The notes beneath the pieces were generated by a model. It had not been told where the DNA came from. It did not search any database and was given only the letters and a program-made list of their open reading frames with translations. Positions 50,857 to 59,625 of a DNA stretch of 64,000 nt are shown piece after piece; within the stretch, counting starts at the first letter, position 1; each line of letters starts with the position of its first letter. The position numbers and the translations under genes were made by a program. Source of the DNA: Hyphomonadaceae bacterium ML37. Its GTDB lineage: Bacteria > Pseudomonadota > Alphaproteobacteria > Caulobacterales > Maricaulaceae. The DNA lies in the NCBI GenBank assembly GCA_027627685.1, contig CP091241.1, positions 1,861,191 through 1,925,190 of the forward strand, given 5' to 3'.

Positions 50857-53439
50857 CTAGCGTCCGGCTTCGGCCAGTTCCTGCTTCACGCGTTCGGCCA
50901 GGTCGGTGATCTCGAACGGCTTGGGCAGGAAGGAGATGGCCAGATCCGCCGATAGCGTGTCGGAGAAATCCTCTTCGGCATAGCCGGAGATGAACACGAT
51001 GCGCGCCGACCCCAGAAGGTGGCGCGCGTTGGTGAGCAGTTTGGGGCCTGACATGCCGGGCATCACCACATCCGACAAGAGAAGATCAAAGCTTTCCGGA
51101 TCGGCTTCGAGGATCTCCAGCGCCTCCTCGCCATCGCAGGCTTCAACCACGTCATAGCCCTTGCGGCGCAACGTGCTGGCGGCGACAGAGCGCAGCATCT
51201 GCTCGTCCTCGACGAACAGGATGCGGCCATGGCCGGCCTGATCGCGCGGCTCGGGTTTGGTCTCCGCGGCGGCGGCTTCGACCACCAGCGTCTCGGCCTC
51301 CTGCACGCTGGGCTCATGACCCGGCAGATAGATGTGGAACACCGTGCCCTTGCCCGGCTTGGAATCCACAAACAGGAAACCTCCCGACTGCTTGATGATG
51401 CCGTAGACCGTGGACAGGCCAAGGCCCGTTCCGCCCTGATGGGCCTTGGTCGTGAAGAAGGGCTCGAAAATCTTCGCCCGCGTCGCCTCGTCCATGCCGG
51501 TGCCGGTATCGGCCACATGGATCGCCGCCCACGGCCCCTCGGCAGGCTCGGGCGCCCCGGCGCGGCGCACATGGGCGGCGTCCACCGCCTCGGTGGTGAT
51601 GGTCAGCACGCCGCCGCCCTGGGCTTTCATGGCGTCGCGGGCATTGGTGGCGAGATTGACCAGAATATTGTCGATCTGCACCCGGTCGGCGCGCACCAGC
51701 GGCAGATCGCGGCCATGCCGGATGTCCAGCCGGACGGTCTCTTCGAGCACCTGATTGAGCATGTGGCTGCAGTCCGACAGCACTTCGGACAGATCGAACA
51801 CGGTCATGCGGAAGGTCTGCTTGCGCGAGAACGCCAGCAGCTGGCGCACCAGGCCGGCCTGACGCGCGCTGACCGAGCGCAATTGCTGCAGATCATAATA
51901 GCTGGGATCGCCCACCGGATGGCGCGCCAGCAATTCGCCCAAATGGAACTTCACCACGGTCAGCATGTTGTTGAAATCATGGGCGACGCCGCTGGCCAGC
52001 TGGCCCACCGCCTGCATCTTGCCAGCCTGATCGACCTGCTGTTCCAGCTCTTTCCAGCTGGTGACGTCCATGAAGTACGCCGCGCGCTTGCCCGCGCGCA
52101 CCGGCGCCAGGAACACATGCACCGCCCGCACGCCGTCACCGCAGATCAGGCAGGCCTCGCTGGGCTCGCCGCGCCCGGCCAGCGCGTTTGTGAACACCAG
52201 GTCGGGCGTATCTCCGCCGGTGATCCGGAACAGGTCGAGAAAGCGTTTGCCTGGAATGGCCACACCGCCCGACAGCTCAATGAGTGTGGGATTGGCGTCT
52301 TCGATCACCGCGTCTTCCAGCGCCATGCCGTCCAGCCGCGCCACGCCGAAGGGGGCGGTGGTGAACATGTCGTCAAACGTGCGCCCGCCCTTGGCCGCCC
52401 CGCCTGCCTCAGCCAGCTGGGCGATGCCCGGCGGCGTGCCTGCCGGCGACAGGCCATAGACCACTACCCGCGCGCACGCGGGGGTCGCCCCGCTCCAGTC
52501 CAGTGCGAGGACGACCGGCGTCTCCACCCCGCCGCGCGCCTTGAGAGACGCTTCAAGGCGCGTCACCGCGCCGGCGCCGCGCGCACGCACAATGGCGCCA
52601 GCGCTCTCAGCGGACAGGAAATCTTTGACCTTCAGCGCCTTGCCTGCATCGACACCCAGCCAGCCGCGCAAGGTCGCGTTGGCGCCCAGCACGCGCCCCT
52701 CCCCGTCGGCGAGGAACAGACCCACGGGCGCATGTTCGGCCCAGTCAGGCGCGCCCGGCGCATCAAGGGCCTCGGGCGCACGCAGCGGCGCAAACCGCCA
52801 CAATGCTGCGCCCGTGCTCATCGGGCTGACATCGGCCTGGTACAGCGCATCAGCGTCGAGACCTGGAGACGGCATGGACAGGGTTTCGCGCGCCGCCTCG
52901 CCGCGCGCACCGGCACGCGCCAGCCGGTACACCGCCGCCGCGCTGTCGCCGGCGAACAGGCGCTCGGGTCCCGGCGCGCCGAACATGTCCGATACGCCGG
53001 CCTCGCGCGCCAGCGCCTTGTAGGCTGAGTTGGCCCAGACCGTGCGGCCAGCAGCGCCCGTAATCAGCAGCGGATCAGGCGAGGCTTCCAGCGCCGCTTC
53101 GGCCAGGCTCGTGCGCGCGCCCTCGCCGCCGCGCAGGGCGCGGCCCGCCGCGTCGCCCGCGGCCAGCGCGTACAGGACCAGCATGGCGGCGGCGGCCAGA
53201 CCGCCCAGCAGCACCACGCCATGCCACCCGGCCGCAGCGCCGGCGATGATCGCCACGCCCGCCGCGCTCAGCGCGCCCAGCCCAGCCGTCCACAGCACCA
53301 GCCGGATCAGCGGACGCACGAGTGGACCGGTCCGGCCCGCCGCCAGTGGCGCGTTATCCATTGCTGGGCTCGGCGTCTCGGCGGCGGTTGGCGCCAATGC
53401 AGCGGAGCGCACAGGTTGGGCGATGGGGGCGTCGGTCAT
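50857..53439 (-). CDS. cckA: hybrid sensor histidine kinase/response regulator CckA
   Basis: 860 aa. Two transmembrane helices (~44-68, ~72-94), PAS-like sensor regions (~112-220, ~233-330 and ~355-465), the H-box GQLASGVAHDFNNML with His487, an HATPase domain (NLATNARDAM, DTGTGMD, GTGLGLSTVYGI) and a C-terminal receiver (ILFVEDEQ...LLLSDVVMPGMSG...KPF). The CckA identity rests on the H-box, architecture and location between flhB and recA. It feeds phosphate through ChpT to CtrA and controls the cell cycle and motility. It is longer than Caulobacter CckA (691 aa). Confidence 0.92.
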   Translation of the reverse strand: MTDAPIAQPVRSAALAPTAAETPSPAMDNAPLAAGRTGPLVRPLIRLVLWTAGLGALSAAGVAIIAGAAAGWHGVVLLGGLAAAAMLVLYALAAGDAAGRALRGGEGARTSLAEAALEASPDPLLITGAAGRTVWANSAYKALAREAGVSDMFGAPGPERLFAGDSAAAVYRLARAGARGEAARETLSMPSPGLDADALYQADVSPMSTGAALWRFAPLRAPEALDAPGAPDWAEHAPVGLFLADGEGRVLGANATLRGWLGVDAGKALKVKDFLSAESAGAIVRARGAGAVTRLEASLKARGGVETPVVLALDWSGATPACARVVVYGLSPAGTPPGIAQLAEAGGAAKGGRTFDDMFTTAPFGVARLDGMALEDAVIEDANPTLIELSGGVAIPGKRFLDLFRITGGDTPDLVFTNALAGRGEPSEACLICGDGVRAVHVFLAPVRAGKRAAYFMDVTSWKELEQQVDQAGKMQAVGQLASGVAHDFNNMLTVVKFHLGELLARHPVGDPSYYDLQQLRSVSARQAGLVRQLLAFSRKQTFRMTVFDLSEVLSDCSHMLNQVLEETVRLDIRHGRDLPLVRADRVQIDNILVNLATNARDAMKAQGGGVLTITTEAVDAAHVRRAGAPEPAEGPWAAIHVADTGTGMDEATRAKIFEPFFTTKAHQGGTGLGLSTVYGIIKQSGGFLFVDSKPGKGTVFHIYLPGHEPSVQEAETLVVEAAAAETKPEPRDQAGHGRILFVEDEQMLRSVAASTLRRKGYDVVEACDGEEALEILEADPESFDLLLSDVVMPGMSGPKLLTNARHLLGSARIVFISGYAEEDFSDTLSADLAISFLPKPFEITDLAERVKQELAEAGR

Positions 53440-53545
53440 GGCGGGCTCCGTGGAGGCGGGAAGCGATTCGGCCCTTGAGCATCACGGATCAAGGTTAACC
53501 GTGTTTGCAGCCGGGCGAAATCGAATGATTGATTCGCCCCGCCCC

Positions 53546-54619
53546 TCACCGCCGCCGCTTGTCCGACAGGCTCAGCACATAGCCGATCACTTTGGCCACG
53601 GCAGCGTAGTGCTCGGGGTCGATAGGCTCGTCCAGATCGGAGGTGGCGAACAGCGCACGCGCCAGCGGCGGGTCCTCCACGATGGGAATATCAAGCTCTT
53701 CGGCCCGCTCGCGGATGCGCAGCGCGACGGCGTCGACGCCCTTGGCGATGCAGATCGGCGCGGGCGTGCGGCCCTGCTCGTATTCCAGCGCGATGGCGTA
53801 GTGGGTCGGGTTGGTGATCACCACCGCCGCGTCGGGCACCCGGCTCATCATGCGCTTCTGGGCGCGCTCCTGGCGGATCTGGCGCAGCTTGGCGCGCACC
53901 ATGGGATCGCCCTCGGTCTCCTTGTACTCGTCGCGCAGCTCCTTGCGGCTCATCTTGTTGCGCTGGATGAACTCGCGACGCTGAAACACGAGGTCCAGCG
54001 CGGCGATGACGGCGTAGGCGATCAGCGCCGCGATCAGCAGAAGAATTGCCGCCTCATGAACCTCGCCCAGCATGCGCGCCGGGCTGACCATGGGGAAGCT
54101 CGCCAGATCATGGCGGCGCGGCCAGAGGACCAGTGTAATGGCGACGCTCACCAGAATGATCTTGCCCACGCCCTTGAGGAAATTCACCCAGCCCTGCGGG
54201 CCGAACATGCGCTTGAGCCCTTCGACCGGGTTCAGCTTGTCAAGTTTGGGGGCGATCTTCTTGGGCGTCCACAACAGGCCGTGCTGGACCAGATTGCCGG
54301 ACGCCGCCGCGACCATCAGCAGCGCGTAGGCGAGGCCGAGTATCAAGGCCATGTCCACCAGAGAGCGCGCCAGCAACGCCATCGCCGCGCCGGGGTCAAG
54401 GCTGAGCTGGTGGGGTTGTTCGAGAAACACGGTCATCGCCTCGCTCAGCGCGCGGGTGAAACCCGGCGCCATGAAGGCGATCACGGCGAGCCCGGCGGCC
54501 AGCGTGAACCAGCCGGAAATTTCCTGGGACTTGGCGACATCGCCCTCCTCGCGCGCCTTTTGAAGTTTGCGCTCGGTCGGCTCCTCGGTCTTTTCAGATT
54601 TGTCTTCGCCTTCAGCCAT
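53546..54619 (-). CDS. flhB: flagellar type III export protein FlhB
   Basis: 357 aa. N-terminal EDKSEKTEEPTERKLQKAREEGDVAKS, four transmembrane segments and the autocleavage motif N270-P-T-H-Y in the cytoplasmic domain. It switches substrate specificity from rod/hook to filament. It follows fliR by 4 bases. Last gene of the fliQ-fliR-flhB group; cckA begins 106 bases downstream. Confidence 0.97.
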   Translation of the reverse strand: MAEGEDKSEKTEEPTERKLQKAREEGDVAKSQEISGWFTLAAGLAVIAFMAPGFTRALSEAMTVFLEQPHQLSLDPGAAMALLARSLVDMALILGLAYALLMVAAASGNLVQHGLLWTPKKIAPKLDKLNPVEGLKRMFGPQGWVNFLKGVGKIILVSVAITLVLWPRRHDLASFPMVSPARMLGEVHEAAILLLIAALIAYAVIAALDLVFQRREFIQRNKMSRKELRDEYKETEGDPMVRAKLRQIRQERAQKRMMSRVPDAAVVITNPTHYAIALEYEQGRTPAPICIAKGVDAVALRIRERAEELDIPIVEDPPLARALFATSDLDEPIDPEHYAAVAKVIGYVLSLSDKRRR

Positions 54620-54623
54620 GGCG

Positions 54624-55382
54624 CTATCCCAGCGTCGCGGCGAAGGATTCCAGGCGCTCGGTCCAGATCATCGCCATTGTACCCAGCGAGATCGCGAGAA
54701 TGGCGAACCCGATCATGATGTTGAGCGGCATGGCGATGAAGAAGATCTGCGCCTGGGGCATCAGGCGCGAGAGCACGCCCAGCCCGAGATAGAAAATCAG
54801 GCCAAAAGCAATCAGCGGCGAGGCAATGCGCACGGCGATCACGAAACTGTCGACAAACAGGCCCAGCGCCCATTGCGCCGCATCACCCCAGATCGGCGCC
54901 TCGCCCGCCGGCATCAGCGCATAGGAGCCGGCGGCCGCCTGCAACAGCATGTGATGCAGATTGGTGGCGAAGATCAGCACCAGGAAGAGGAGATTGAAGA
55001 ACTGCGCCGGCAGCGCGCCGGATTGACCCTGAATGGGGTCGAAGGCCTGCGCCATCGCCAGGCCCGTTTGATAGGCGATGATCTGGCCGGCGGTCGCCGC
55101 CGCCGCCATCAGGAAACGCGCGCCCGCGCCGATCATCAGCCCGATGACGATTTCCACCGTGATCAGGCCGGCCAGCCCCGCCATCGTTTCAGGCGCGGGC
55201 GGCAATTGCGGGGCGATCATCGGCCCCACCGCCAGCGAGAAGGCCAGCGCGAAAGCCAGCCGGATCCGGCCCGGCACCGCCATCTCGCCAATGCCCGGCA
55301 GCAACATGAGGATCGCGCCCATGCGCGCGAAAACCAGAGCCGCGGCGAACAGGCTGACGCCCGGATCGAACGCGGCGATCAT
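54624..55382 (-). CDS. fliR: flagellar biosynthetic protein FliR
   Basis: 252 aa with six hydrophobic helices. FARMGAILMLLPGIGEMAVPGRIRLAFALAFS at the N-terminus and LGLGVLSRLMPQAQIFFIAMPLNIMIGF near the C-terminus are FliR signatures. Component of the export gate with FliP and FliQ. The ATG at 55382 starts 4 bases after the fliQ stop. Confidence 0.96.
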   Translation of the reverse strand: MIAAFDPGVSLFAAALVFARMGAILMLLPGIGEMAVPGRIRLAFALAFSLAVGPMIAPQLPPAPETMAGLAGLITVEIVIGLMIGAGARFLMAAAATAGQIIAYQTGLAMAQAFDPIQGQSGALPAQFFNLLFLVLIFATNLHHMLLQAAAGSYALMPAGEAPIWGDAAQWALGLFVDSFVIAVRIASPLIAFGLIFYLGLGVLSRLMPQAQIFFIAMPLNIMIGFAILAISLGTMAMIWTERLESFAATLG

Positions 55383-55386
55383 CGCG

Positions 55387-55650
55387 TCAACCCGCCACGA
55401 TCCGGTCGACAATCATGTCCATATAGCCCGAGAGCAGCGCCCCCATGAGCGGCAGGAATACGATCAGCGCCAGGAAGATCGCCACGATCTTGGGCACGAA
55501 GACCAGCGTCATTTCCTGAACCTGGGTCAGCGCCTGGAACAGCGCGATCATCAGGCCCACAGCCAGACCGATCAGCATGACGGGTGCCGCCATGCCCAGC
55601 AGGGTCCAGATCGCCTGGGTCGCGATGTCGAGCACTTCACCGGGCGTCAT
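55387..55650 (-). CDS. fliQ: flagellar biosynthetic protein FliQ
   Basis: 87 aa, two transmembrane helices, with PVMLIGLAVGLMIALFQALTQVQEMTLVFVPKI, the FliQ signature. Export gate subunit. Start at 55650; a longer frame adds 5 residues. First gene of the operon. No TTAA-N7-TTAA CtrA box was found in the 161 bases upstream. Confidence 0.96.
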   Translation of the reverse strand: MTPGEVLDIATQAIWTLLGMAAPVMLIGLAVGLMIALFQALTQVQEMTLVFVPKIVAIFLALIVFLPLMGALLSGYMDMIVDRIVAG

Positions 55651-55811
55651 GGGCGCAGCTCCCAAGCTTTTCGATCATCTTTCATGACGGGATTCTGCCG
55701 CAGCCCAAACCTCAACCGTCAGGCGGACGGCAAACGGCCCCCGGATTGACGCGCCGGCGGCCATATCACAGCTTTCACGCCGGCGCGCACGCCCCTATAC
55801 CCTTGAGCATC

Positions 55812-57812
55812 ATGCAGACGTCCGACCTCATCCTTCTGGCTGCCGCCGGGCTTGTGCTGCTGGCCATTGCCGGCGCCGCCGCCACGCGGCAGGCGGGGGC
55901 GCCGCTTTTGCTGATCTTCCTGGCGATCGGCATGCTGGCCGGCGAAGAAGGTCCGGGCGGGATCGTGTTCCACGATCACAACTCGGCCTATCTGCTGGGC
56001 TCGCTGGCGCTGGCGCTGATCCTGTTCGATGGCGGGTTGGGCACCAAGCTGCGGCGGCTCAAGGGCGTGCTGCGCCCGGCTTTGAGTCTGGCCACCGTCG
56101 GCGTGCTGATTACAGCGGGCGTGACGGCGGCGGCGGCCAAATACCTGTTCGATCTGGGCTGGGTTGAGGCCTTCCTGCTGGGCGCGATCGTGTCGTCCAC
56201 CGACGCCGCCGCCGTGCTGATGCTGATTGCGGGCCGGGACCTGAAAGCGCGCCCGCGCGTGGCCACGACGCTGGAGGCCGAATCCGGTTTCAACGATCCC
56301 ATGGCGGTGATCCTGGTGGTCACAGCGGTGACCTGGCTGTCGGAAGGCGGCGCGCCGGAGCCATTTGCGGCCGCCCTGTCTATCGTCTGGGCCCTAGTTG
56401 CGGGCGGGCTGATCGGCTGGTTTGGCGGGCGGCTGATCGGCTGGATGGAGCGCAAAGTGCGCCTGCCCATCGGCCTCTATCCGATCTTTGGCGTCGCCGC
56501 CGCGGTCTTCCTTTTCGCCTTCGCCCAGGTCATCGGCGCGTCCGGGTTCCTGGCCGCCTATCTCGCAGGCGTGGCGCTGGCCGCCTCCCCACGCCGGGCG
56601 GCGGAGGCGACGGACCGCTTTTCCGACGGGCTGGCCTGGCTGGCCCAGATCGGGATGTTTCTCATGCTGGGTCTGCTGATCACGCCCAGCCACGCCGCTG
56701 AAGTGGCCCTGCCTGCGCTTGGCGTGGCGCTGATCCTGATCCTGGTGGCGCGCCCTCTGGCCGTGCTGATCTGTCTGGCGCCCGAGCGCTTCCGCCTGAA
56801 CGAGCGCGCTTTCATCGCCTGGATGGGGCTGCGTGGCGCCGTGCCGATCTTCCTGGGCGCATATCCGGTGATCGCGGGCGTCGAGAACGCCAACCTCTAT
56901 TTCTCTGCAGCCTTCGCCGTGGTGATCGCCTCGCTGGTCATCCAGGGCTGGACCGCAGGGCCGGTGGCGCGCCTGTTCGGCGTGGCGCCGCCTTTGCCGC
57001 GCGGCGGGCGCTGGGCCAATGCCGGCATGGTCGCCGTGGTGATCAGCGGGTTTTCCTTCATGAGCCTCGCCGTCTCCTTGACTGTGACGCGCGAGACGCC
57101 TCAAGAGCGCCTGATGGCGGCCGGCTCGATCGAGGAATTGCGCCAGGCCATGGCGCCGCTGGACCCGTCCACGGGCACTATGCGGCTTGAAGCGCTCCCC
57201 GCCGACTGGACCGATCTGGAAGCAGGCGAACGGCGCGACACGTTTGCGCGGATCGCCTCGGGCCTGATCGCGGCGCAGAACGCCCGTATCCTGAATGACC
57301 GCGCCGCGCTGCTTCAGATGCGCGCCATCGAGGAGGCGGACCAGCCCCTGCTCCTGTCCCAGCAGGCCAGGCGCGACACGCTCGCCCGCCGCTACGGGGT
57401 TCGCTACGAGGATCTGGACGGATTGCTGGAGCGGGTCGACATCATCCCGCCCTCAATGGGCGCAGCGCAGGCCATCCTCGCCACGGGCTGGGGCGACAGC
57501 GACGCAGCGCGCAACCGCAACGCCCTGTTCGGCCGCATGCCGGCCGGTCTGGACGGCTTCCCCAGCCTGCTGGCCTCGGCGGGTGATTATGTCGACCTGC
57601 TCAATACGCACCCGGATTTCGCGCCTTTGCGGGCGGCGCGCGCCGAGCTGCGCGCCCGGCAAGCGCCTGTGACGGGCCTGGATCTGGCGGCGCATATCGG
57701 CCCGTATGCGGCCAGCGGCGACGCCTACGCAGACCAGGTCCGCGCGCTCATCGTCAGCGCCAATCTCGACCGCTTTGATCCGGCGCCGGCGCCGGATCCT
57801 GCCCAGAGCTAG
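55812..57812 (+). CDS. CvrA/NhaP2-type K+/H+ antiporter fused to a Bax-like glucosaminidase domain without catalytic Glu
   Basis: 666 aa. Residues 1-395 are a CPA1 antiporter closely resembling E. coli CvrA/NhaP2 ([50 protein letters not shown]). The usual TrkA-C/CorC tail is absent. Instead there is an extra transmembrane helix (~403-424), a helical linker (~430-525) and a C-terminal domain (~526-655) resembling E. coli Bax: [64 protein letters not shown]. The family's catalytic Glu (ESGWG) is Ala557 here. Likely an ion exchanger with a periplasmic wall-facing module; the function of the module is unknown. Confidence 0.85.
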
Positions 57813-58339
57813 TGACCGTCGAAGGCGACCAGCGAGACGCACGGCACGCCCATCGCAGACACTTTCGCGGCGCCGCCCAAGTCCGGCAGGTCGATAACGA
57901 AACTCGCGCCAATAACCTCGGCCCCGGCCTTGCGAAGCAAGGTGATGGCCGCTTCCGCCGTACCGCCGGTGGCGATCAGGTCATCGATGAGCAGCACGGT
58001 CTCGCCCGGCGCGATGGCGTCCGCATGGATCTCCACCTCGTCGACGCCGTATTCGAGCTCATAGGTCTGGCTCAGCGTCTTGTGGGGCAGCTTGCCCTTC
58101 TTGCGCACCGGCACGAAGCCGACCGACAGCTGGTGGGCCACCGCGCCGCCGAGAATAAAGCCGCGCGCCTCGATGCCCGCCACCTTGTCGATCTTGGCGC
58201 CGGCATGAGGCTGGACCATCGCATCGATCGCGCTGCGAAACGCGCGCGCATCGCCCAGCAGCGTGGTGACATCGCGAAACTGGATGCCCGGCTTGGGATA
58301 GTCCGCAATGGTGCGGATGGCGGATTTGAGAGAGTCCAT
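57809..58339 (-). CDS. apt: adenine phosphoribosyltransferase
   Basis: 176 aa. [27 protein letters not shown] at the N-terminus, [28 protein letters not shown] and the PRPP-binding [17 protein letters not shown]. It salvages adenine to AMP. The ATG at 58339 fits the family; the frame stays open to 58705 through the upstream gene without coding meaning. Its stop shares CTAG with the antiporter stop. Confidence 0.97.
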
Positions 58340-58410
58340 GAAACGGTCCCGGCCTGAGCGCTGAAGATTGGCGCGAGCATTCGCGCGCCCCGCCTGCGCG
58401 TCAAGGCCGC

Positions 58411-59625
58411 TTAAACGCTGACGGCGCCCAATAACACCACCGCCGTCAGGCCGAGCAGGATCAAACACCCGTAAGCGACATCCAGCGCCGCCACGCGCAT
58501 CACGGCCTGAAGGCGTCCGGTGGAATAGACCACCCTGAGCAGGCGGTAGAGATAGGCATGGGCGTAGATGAAAAACGCCAGCACCACCCAGCCGGGCGTG
58601 ATGACCAGGCCCAGAGCCATCGCCAGGAGCATGGCGATGAAGATCGCCGCATGAAACTGCAGCGCGGTGACCAGATGGTCGAAGTACAAAAATCCGCGCC
58701 GCCATGCATACGCGAGACCCAGAAGGCCGGCGAAAAGGGGCACCATCACGAACATGATGCGCGGCGCCCAGGCGAGGCTCTCCGCCGCCCAGCGGTCAGG
58801 GCGGCTCGCCAGACGCTCGATCCGGTCGGCGATGAACGCGCGGGCGGTTCTCGACCCCGTGACCGTCTCGGTCGAGGCGCCGAACTCTTCGGGCACGATG
58901 ACTCGCCGCATGGCCTGAGCCGCCTCAGGCGACAAACCACGACTGAAGTCCATAATGACTGGCGCCTCGCCCTCGCCATCCGCCGGAGCATCCCCGGCCC
59001 CGGCGCCAGCGTCGGCTTCGTCCGCCGGCTCCGGCGCCGGGTCGACGGCGAAAGCGACTTCGGGGTCAAACACCGCCAGCGTTTCGAGGGCCGCGATGGC
59101 AGCGCGATAATTGTCTTCGGTGATCTCACCTGAGGCCAGAGCTTCGTCCAGGCGTTCGCGCGACGCGGCGGCGGCGCCCGCATCATTGCCGATCATGCTG
59201 TCTGACGGACTGACCAGCGGCAGGATCAGGAAAAAGGCCAGCGAGGCGATGAGATAAAGCCGGAAGGGCGGAATGTACCGCCCCCGCCTGCCCTTGAGAT
59301 AGTCGCGGGTTACCCGGCCGGGAAATGCCATGAGCGCGACAAGCGTGCGCACCACACGGCCGTCCAGCGCGAACATGTCTGAGACGCTGTCGCCAATCAG
59401 ACGCCACACCGGACGCTTGTAAAGATCGGCATGCTGGCCGCAGGCATGGCAGACCGGCCCCATCAGCGTGGCGCCGCAATTGGCGCACACGCCTTCCGGG
59501 GTGTCGGGACGCAAGGCGCCGGGGCGCGAGGGGCGCACCCTGGGGCGCGTCCCTTCCGCCGCAGCCACTGCGGCCACGTGCTCGGCCGCCGTGCGGGCGG
59601 CGGCTTCCAGATCGGGTTCCGACAT
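58411..59625 (-). CDS. DUF3667 domain-containing membrane protein with N-terminal zinc ribbon
   Basis: 404 aa. A zinc ribbon ([19 protein letters not shown], two CxxC) is followed by [29 protein letters not shown] and [29 protein letters not shown], which are typical of DUF3667. The hydrophobic helices are one near 125-140 and a cluster in the last ~120 residues. A long acidic, Ala-rich periplasmic or cytosolic insert lies between. The function is unknown. It sits between oppA and apt, transcribed with them in the same direction. Confidence 0.85.

Follow-up and report, generated by a model that had tools for sequence, protein, structure and literature searches.

The gene at positions 55812–57812 (plus strand) of the window, a 64,000-nucleotide stretch of contig CP091241.1 from Hyphomonadaceae bacterium ML37, joins a CvrA/YcgO-type CPA1 antiporter to an added transmembrane helix and a pseudo-glucosaminidase ectodomain. 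The same architecture was recovered in 30 genomes, including this one. This module on a K+/H+ antiporter is thus real and conserved; it appears to be periplasmic and is very probably non-catalytic. The gene is translated without interruption into 666 amino acids from an ATG at 55812, where the family alignment begins, with the frame open back to an in-frame GTG at 55584. Pfam assigns Na_H_Exchanger to residues 15–386 (E 1.7e-53) and Glucosaminidase to residues 545–651 (35.7 bits, passing the cut-off of 30.2). Together with NCBIfam matches to both parts, these assignments bear out a preliminary description, made from the sequence alone, of an antiporter fused to a Bax-like domain. A single antiporter match (E ≤ 1e-30) and a single PF01832 match were found in the window genome, both of them in the fused gene. 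At its 3' end, the stop codon overlaps that of a convergent ORF (57809–58705, minus strand; apt-like, judging by its translation) in the palindrome CTAG at 57809–57812.

The antiporter part comprises residues 1–395 (55812–56996). Over this stretch, the NCBIfam K/H antiporter model NF003715 scored 485.8 bits against a cut-off of 309, in agreement with the CvrA-type CPA1 identity initially proposed for these 395 residues. Of the sister models, NF003716 was passed (417.1 against 355) and NF003714 was not (381.6 against 471). Residues D131, E155, E157, N161, D162, and R341 are invariant in 30/30 fusions. The acidic vestibule of YcgO is formed by D133, E155, E157, and D162 (PMC11808508); three of these residue numbers are shared by the fused protein, and the pairing of D131 with YcgO D133 is one of unaligned numbering. 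Because the six key residues are retained in every fusion, ion exchange by the fused antiporter is probably intact. No Pfam match to RCK, TrkA_C, or CorC was obtained in the window protein at E ≤ 1, with Glucosaminidase present there instead; the regulatory cytoplasmic TrkA-C/CorC tail is therefore missing, as had been suggested. In YcgO, the equivalent portion is a 195-residue cytoplasmic region with putative RCK and CorC domains that is bound by PtsN (PMC11808508). Among five non-fused antiporters from the same order, L026 and L027 end in a tail that matches CorC weakly, short of the Pfam cut-off, and L028–L030 have no C-terminal tail.

The preliminary description assigned a Bax/FlgJ-like layout to the C-terminal ~130 residues. 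This holds for the GH73 core, represented by the Pfam match at 545–651 (57444–57764); the homology itself is larger, with stand-alone homologs aligning across nearly the whole ectodomain of ~225 residues (~432–656; 57105–57779), which consists of a helical N-terminal part followed by the GH73-like core. The NCBIfam model for protein Bax, NF007681, matched residues 460–645 with 79.2 bits, short of its equivalog cut-off of 193. When searched against PDB sequences, profile A4 (20 fused and 29 stand-alone rows) matched FlgJ (5dn5) at E 6.6e-8, as well as AtlA and Auto. The AlphaFold2 model of the ectodomain, built from 49 sequences (pLDDT 93.2, pTM 0.89), contains helices only, with no strand of three or more residues. 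On the structural similarity to GH73 folds raised at the outset, the region matches GH73 proteins by sequence and glucosaminidase proteins head the Foldseek results, but the search of the model against PDB returned no match at E ≤ 0.001. Its top six matches (probability 0.72–1.00) comprise five glucosaminidase-domain entries and 5t1q, which is titled an amidase and was also matched by profile A4; the best is Auto 3fi7 (E 0.0058, TM 0.42/0.55). Scaffold residues P463, R474, N490, R497, P546, Q553, G559, W560, G561, N570, G574, and R607 are kept in 30/30 fusions. Two further residues, L515 and R526 (the latter at 57387–57389, 30/30), are invariant in fusions and vary in stand-alone relatives; both precede the Pfam GH73 core and belong to the helical N-terminal part. 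In the stand-alone relative L045, the N-terminus is hydrophobic and, on reading the sequence, resembles a signal or anchor.

Turning to catalysis, GH73 enzymes possess an invariant glutamate, the likely general acid, exemplified by E184 in Salmonella FlgJ (PMC4752226) and E212 in AtlA (PMC9108991). At this site, the window protein has Ala557 (codon GCC, 57480–57482), as originally read. Glutamate is absent from this column in all 30 fusions (28 alanine, one threonine, and one serine), whereas it is present in all 29 stand-alone alphaproteobacterial relatives, which were the best-scoring loci of the class search and were chosen by score. In some GH73 clusters, though not all, a second glutamate is located on a mobile beta-hairpin (PMC4752226, PMC9108991). 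The corresponding region in the window protein is a short loop (residues 575–585; 57534–57566): the segment following the N-x-L-F-G motif spans 6–20 residues in the fusions, with at most 11 in 27/30, against 13–33 residues in the stand-alone relatives, with at least 26 in 24/29 and a few short as well. Other positions have diverged too. Position 564 is Arg in 26/29 stand-alone relatives and Asp or Glu in 19/30 fusions; position 575 is Gln in 26/29 and, among the 30 fusions, Arg in 20 and Gly in seven; position 596 is Asn in 27/29 and Leu or Val in 25/30. Y632, which aligns with the tyrosine of the GH73 YATD motif, is Tyr in 27 and Phe in three of the fusions, and the motif itself reads YAAS in the window ectodomain. 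Docking of substrate into AtlA assigns contacts to the hairpin residues W245 and E246, among others, and has T312 and D313 making theirs through the backbone (PMC9108991), so the change from YATD to YAAS says less. Taken together, the alignments strongly indicate that the ectodomain is very probably unable to cleave glycan.

The additional helix (residues 400–428; 57009–57095) follows TM13. An AlphaFold2 model from 20 fused sequences (mean pLDDT 82.3, pTM 0.67) places a helix at 360–388 and then this one, close to the ~403–424 first noted. Its best 19-residue hydropathy is 2.10 in the window protein, at least 1.36 in 30/30 fusions, and at least 1.6 in 26/30. With loop borders taken from the AlphaFold2 model and the YcgO orientation, the seven predicted inner loops are net positive across the 30 fusions and the six predicted outer loops are net negative, one by only −0.07. 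The net charge is +1.47 for the loop before the extra helix and −1.10 for the stretch after it. YcgO is itself N-out/C-in, with residue 386 cytoplasmic (PMC11808508). The modeled helix, the positive-inside loop charges, and the YcgO topology together provide good support for a predicted periplasmic ectodomain, with the C-terminus turned outward by the extra helix; a cytoplasmic location, which would have spoken against the original proposal, is not what these data suggest.

To define how widely the fusion occurs, the earlier suggestion of a search within the order was taken up using profile A2. The fusion was found in 20/137 genomes of the window's family, which the named records identify as Maricaulaceae (Maricaulales), on the basis of two species looked up; a weak match, G016 (E 7.9e-4, 51 positions, 226-aa frame), was left out of this count. 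It was found in 28/398 genomes of the order (18 in the same family, nine in family f5, and one in family f2), in a search that, like those of the class and phylum samples, scored part of the first-look candidates in each genome, so that absences in all three are not proof. Pooling the family and order searches gives 30 distinct fused genomes in three families, 10 of them outside the window's family. The 11 named fusion records (where a genus is given, Oceanicaulis, Alkalicaulis, Glycocaulis, Marinicauda, or Euryhalocaulis) are copies of members of this set and add no further cases. With the C-terminal part as query, 12/61 relatives had the fusion; an additional match in one of these, L013, lies on reading antisense to a peptidase-like gene and was not counted as a fusion. 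Among the 61 relatives, every ectodomain-bearing genome has the antiporter (12/12), and close antiporters (at least 52% identity) always come with the ectodomain (12/12); five other genomes have a more distant antiporter and no ectodomain. Of the 398 genomes in the phylum sample, 97 contained a match to the antiporter at E ≤ 1e-60; the window gene was the one match among them to span the fusion. In the class sample of 385 genomes, 167 matched the ectodomain; among the matches listed, leaving aside the window gene, frames ranged from 283 to 750 aa, with those of 480–590 aa read in part only and the longest, as read, not an antiporter fusion.

Some observations on individual loci accompany this survey. 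The fusions L132, L138, and L141 of family f5 score 30.0, 29.3, and 20.0 bits with PF01832, below the cut-off of 30.2, and therefore the fusion could escape routine annotation there. The fused homolog L101:1486-3477 lacks an ATG at the conserved start and seems likely to use TTG. Some alphaproteobacterial genomes have Bax-like domain matches without a fusion-length frame, arranged as neighboring pairs (G255:C1:3142258 with 3143268; G061:C52:10117 with 11109; G141:C9:132502 with 133518; G347:C14:4211 with 5185).

Both halves of the protein form single groups in phylogenetic trees. In the ectodomain tree (30 fused, 29 stand-alone), the fusions lie on one side of a branch with support of 100/100; in the antiporter tree (30 fused, 12 non-fused), they do so with support of 100/99. 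These trees include few non-fused rows, stand-alone rows picked by score, and some flagged long branches. This pattern fits a single fusion event followed by vertical spread and loss. L010, L011, and L012, the three fusions in which the residual loop is longest, are the earliest branches of the ectodomain tree under midpoint rooting, at weakly supported forks, whereas in the antiporter tree they cluster with the f2/f5 fusions (80/64). By a simple Nei–Gojobori count, with some pairs near silent-site saturation, ectodomain omega was 0.06–0.20 in 8/9 pairs and 0.56 in the ninth (L008–L102), and antiporter omega (0.025–0.153) was lower than that of the ectodomain in 9/9 pairs. The ectodomain thus appears to be under purifying selection in eight of the nine pairs.

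The gene neighborhood was also considered. Divergently upstream of the fused gene lie fliQ, fliR, and flhB, named by reading their translations (53546–55665, minus strand). Only 4/11 named loci share this layout, and a flagellar link was rejected as a functional clue. Beyond these genes, at 50857–53439 (minus strand), is a large PAS/histidine-kinase/receiver hybrid protein, which by eye we take to be CckA-like. No RNA element was detected within 53500–58700 at E ≤ 0.1. An operon link between Bax-like and antiporter genes was dropped, as no antiporter match was present at 20 non-fused Bax-like loci inspected over ~6 kb on either side (less at two contig ends). Regulation of an active paralog in the same cell was likewise set aside: all 12 PF01832 matches in the 61 genomes are fused genes, and 28/28 order genomes with a profile A2 match carry the fused form. 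Because all of these matches are to the fused form, a local active Bax-like partner seems unlikely, in a check that scored part of the candidates per genome at first look and used a PF01832 model insensitive enough to place three f5 fusions below its cut-off.

From these data we propose, tentatively and at somewhat less than even probability, that the protein is a K+/H+ (or Na+/H+) antiporter of the CvrA/YcgO type whose RCK/CorC tail has given way to a periplasmic, non-catalytic domain of Bax/GH73 descent, and that this domain anchors to or senses peptidoglycan and sets exchange. The ectodomain would use its remodeled cleft to anchor the transporter to peptidoglycan or to sense it, whether as a glycan strand or as a turnover product. 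Strain or occupancy would then be passed through the added helix 400–428, which adjoins TM13 in sequence, to set ion exchange. A peptidoglycan-contacting ectodomain signaling through this helix would place control of exchange on the wall side rather than in the cytoplasm. A precedent is offered by MotB/PomB, in which a wall-binding periplasmic domain regulates ion conductance (PMC9093738). The more specific form of the proposal, a wall-gated antiporter whose periplasmic pseudo-glucosaminidase grips or reads peptidoglycan and directly sets K+/H+ exchange, we consider unlikely, if worth entertaining.

Several other explanations bear on this proposal. The prospect that sequencing, assembly, or gene calling has joined two adjacent genes is practically nil: nothing was found in its favor, and independent genomes already contradict it, as antiporter and ectodomain share a single open frame in each of the 30. 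The window gene sits in a one-contig assembly, and none of the 20 stand-alone Bax-like loci has an adjoining antiporter gene. In fusion G954, a lone TGA falls just beyond the end of the frame and is therefore the gene's own stop. It is also improbable, though less so, that the ectodomain survives passively from an old fusion, its role limited to stability or folding. Its omega does exceed that of the antiporter in every pair and reaches 0.56 in L008–L102, which such a relic might display; against this are the low values in the other eight pairs, the many scaffold positions invariant in 30/30, the retention of the domain in frame across three families, and its presence with every close antiporter among the 61 relatives. 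Far less probable is an ectodomain that still cuts peptidoglycan using another acid. An Asp or Glu occurs at position 564 in 19/30 fusions, and the second catalytic group varies among GH73 enzymes (PMC4752226), yet the invariant general acid is gone in 30/30 and the hairpin segment is shortened. No acidic column is found among those with at least 28/30 identical fused residues, and neither a glutamate at the catalytic position nor an invariant substitute acid was seen in any fusion.

The strongest competitor is a protein-interaction or assembly module that no longer binds the wall, acting as a dimer clamp or as a dock for a periplasmic or division protein; we regard this as a real possibility, albeit one below even chances. 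Degenerate M23 folds, such as those of EnvC and NlpD, mostly serve protein–protein contacts (PMC9662197), and a glucosaminidase-type domain drives multimerization of the PlyCYU endolysin, where some activity is thought to be kept (PMC12442389). The AtlA-type hairpin that bears the docked contacts W245 and E246 is absent from the window ectodomain, which counts against the wall reading; with the hairpin contacts of GH73 enzymes gone, wall binding is therefore one possibility among several. The fusion-only invariants L515 and R526, in the helical N-terminal part, would fit protein contact equally well. Against a purely protein-contact role, Y632 is kept (Y27/F3), as are W560, G559, G561, and N570 in 30/30, though these may be scaffold residues. 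Nor does the gene neighborhood offer a partner, since the window's neighbors recur in only 4/11 named loci; those of the other seven were compared with the window's only, not with each other. Wall sensing or anchoring is the reading we infer for the ectodomain, with a protein-contact role nearly as likely.

The periplasmic domain of MotB/PomB is OmpA-like and unrelated to the GH73-derived ectodomain, and EnvC and NlpD are not known to be fused to a transporter. The fused protein can be placed among known systems. It resembles YcgO/CvrA (PRK05326) in its CPA1 transmembrane domain over residues 1–395 and its conserved acidic residues (PMC11808508), but the ~195-aa PtsN-binding cytoplasmic region of YcgO is replaced here by the extra helix and the predicted periplasmic ectodomain. 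It resembles Bax-like glucosaminidases (NF007681, PF01832, GH73) in homology over ~225 residues and common scaffold residues, and departs from them in its fusion to a transporter, the missing catalytic glutamate, and the shortened hairpin segment. As proposed here, it would resemble MotB/PomB in that a membrane complex conducting ions bears a periplasmic domain that binds the wall, with conductance controlled from that side (PMC9093738), although those proteins form a channel-type stator and this one would be a secondary antiporter with a GH73-derived domain. The degenerate LytM factors EnvC and NlpD have a wall-hydrolase fold that has lost catalysis and kept a role (PMC9662197), a course that the ectodomain would share; unlike it, these have an M23 peptidase fold and activate amidases.

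How bacterial ion content and turgor are kept in step with the wall is, to our knowledge, still an open question. In YcgO and KefC, both regulated antiporters for K+ efflux, control is exerted by way of cytoplasmic domains (PMC11808508). Both parts of the protein described here belong to known families; the combination of an antiporter with a pseudo-glucosaminidase is new to us, and no account of an antiporter–glucosaminidase fusion was present among the best-ranked literature matches, a search whose scope mostly excluded subscription papers. The loss of the glutamate in 30 fusions and its retention in the 29 stand-alone relatives compared provide a clade-wide pseudoenzyme case for GH73. A conserved antiporter in which a periplasmic pseudo-wall-enzyme replaces the cytoplasmic domain allows a direct connection between wall and transporter to be tested within one protein; a wall-gated antiporter, if true, would tie wall state or turgor to cytoplasmic K+ and pH through a single protein.
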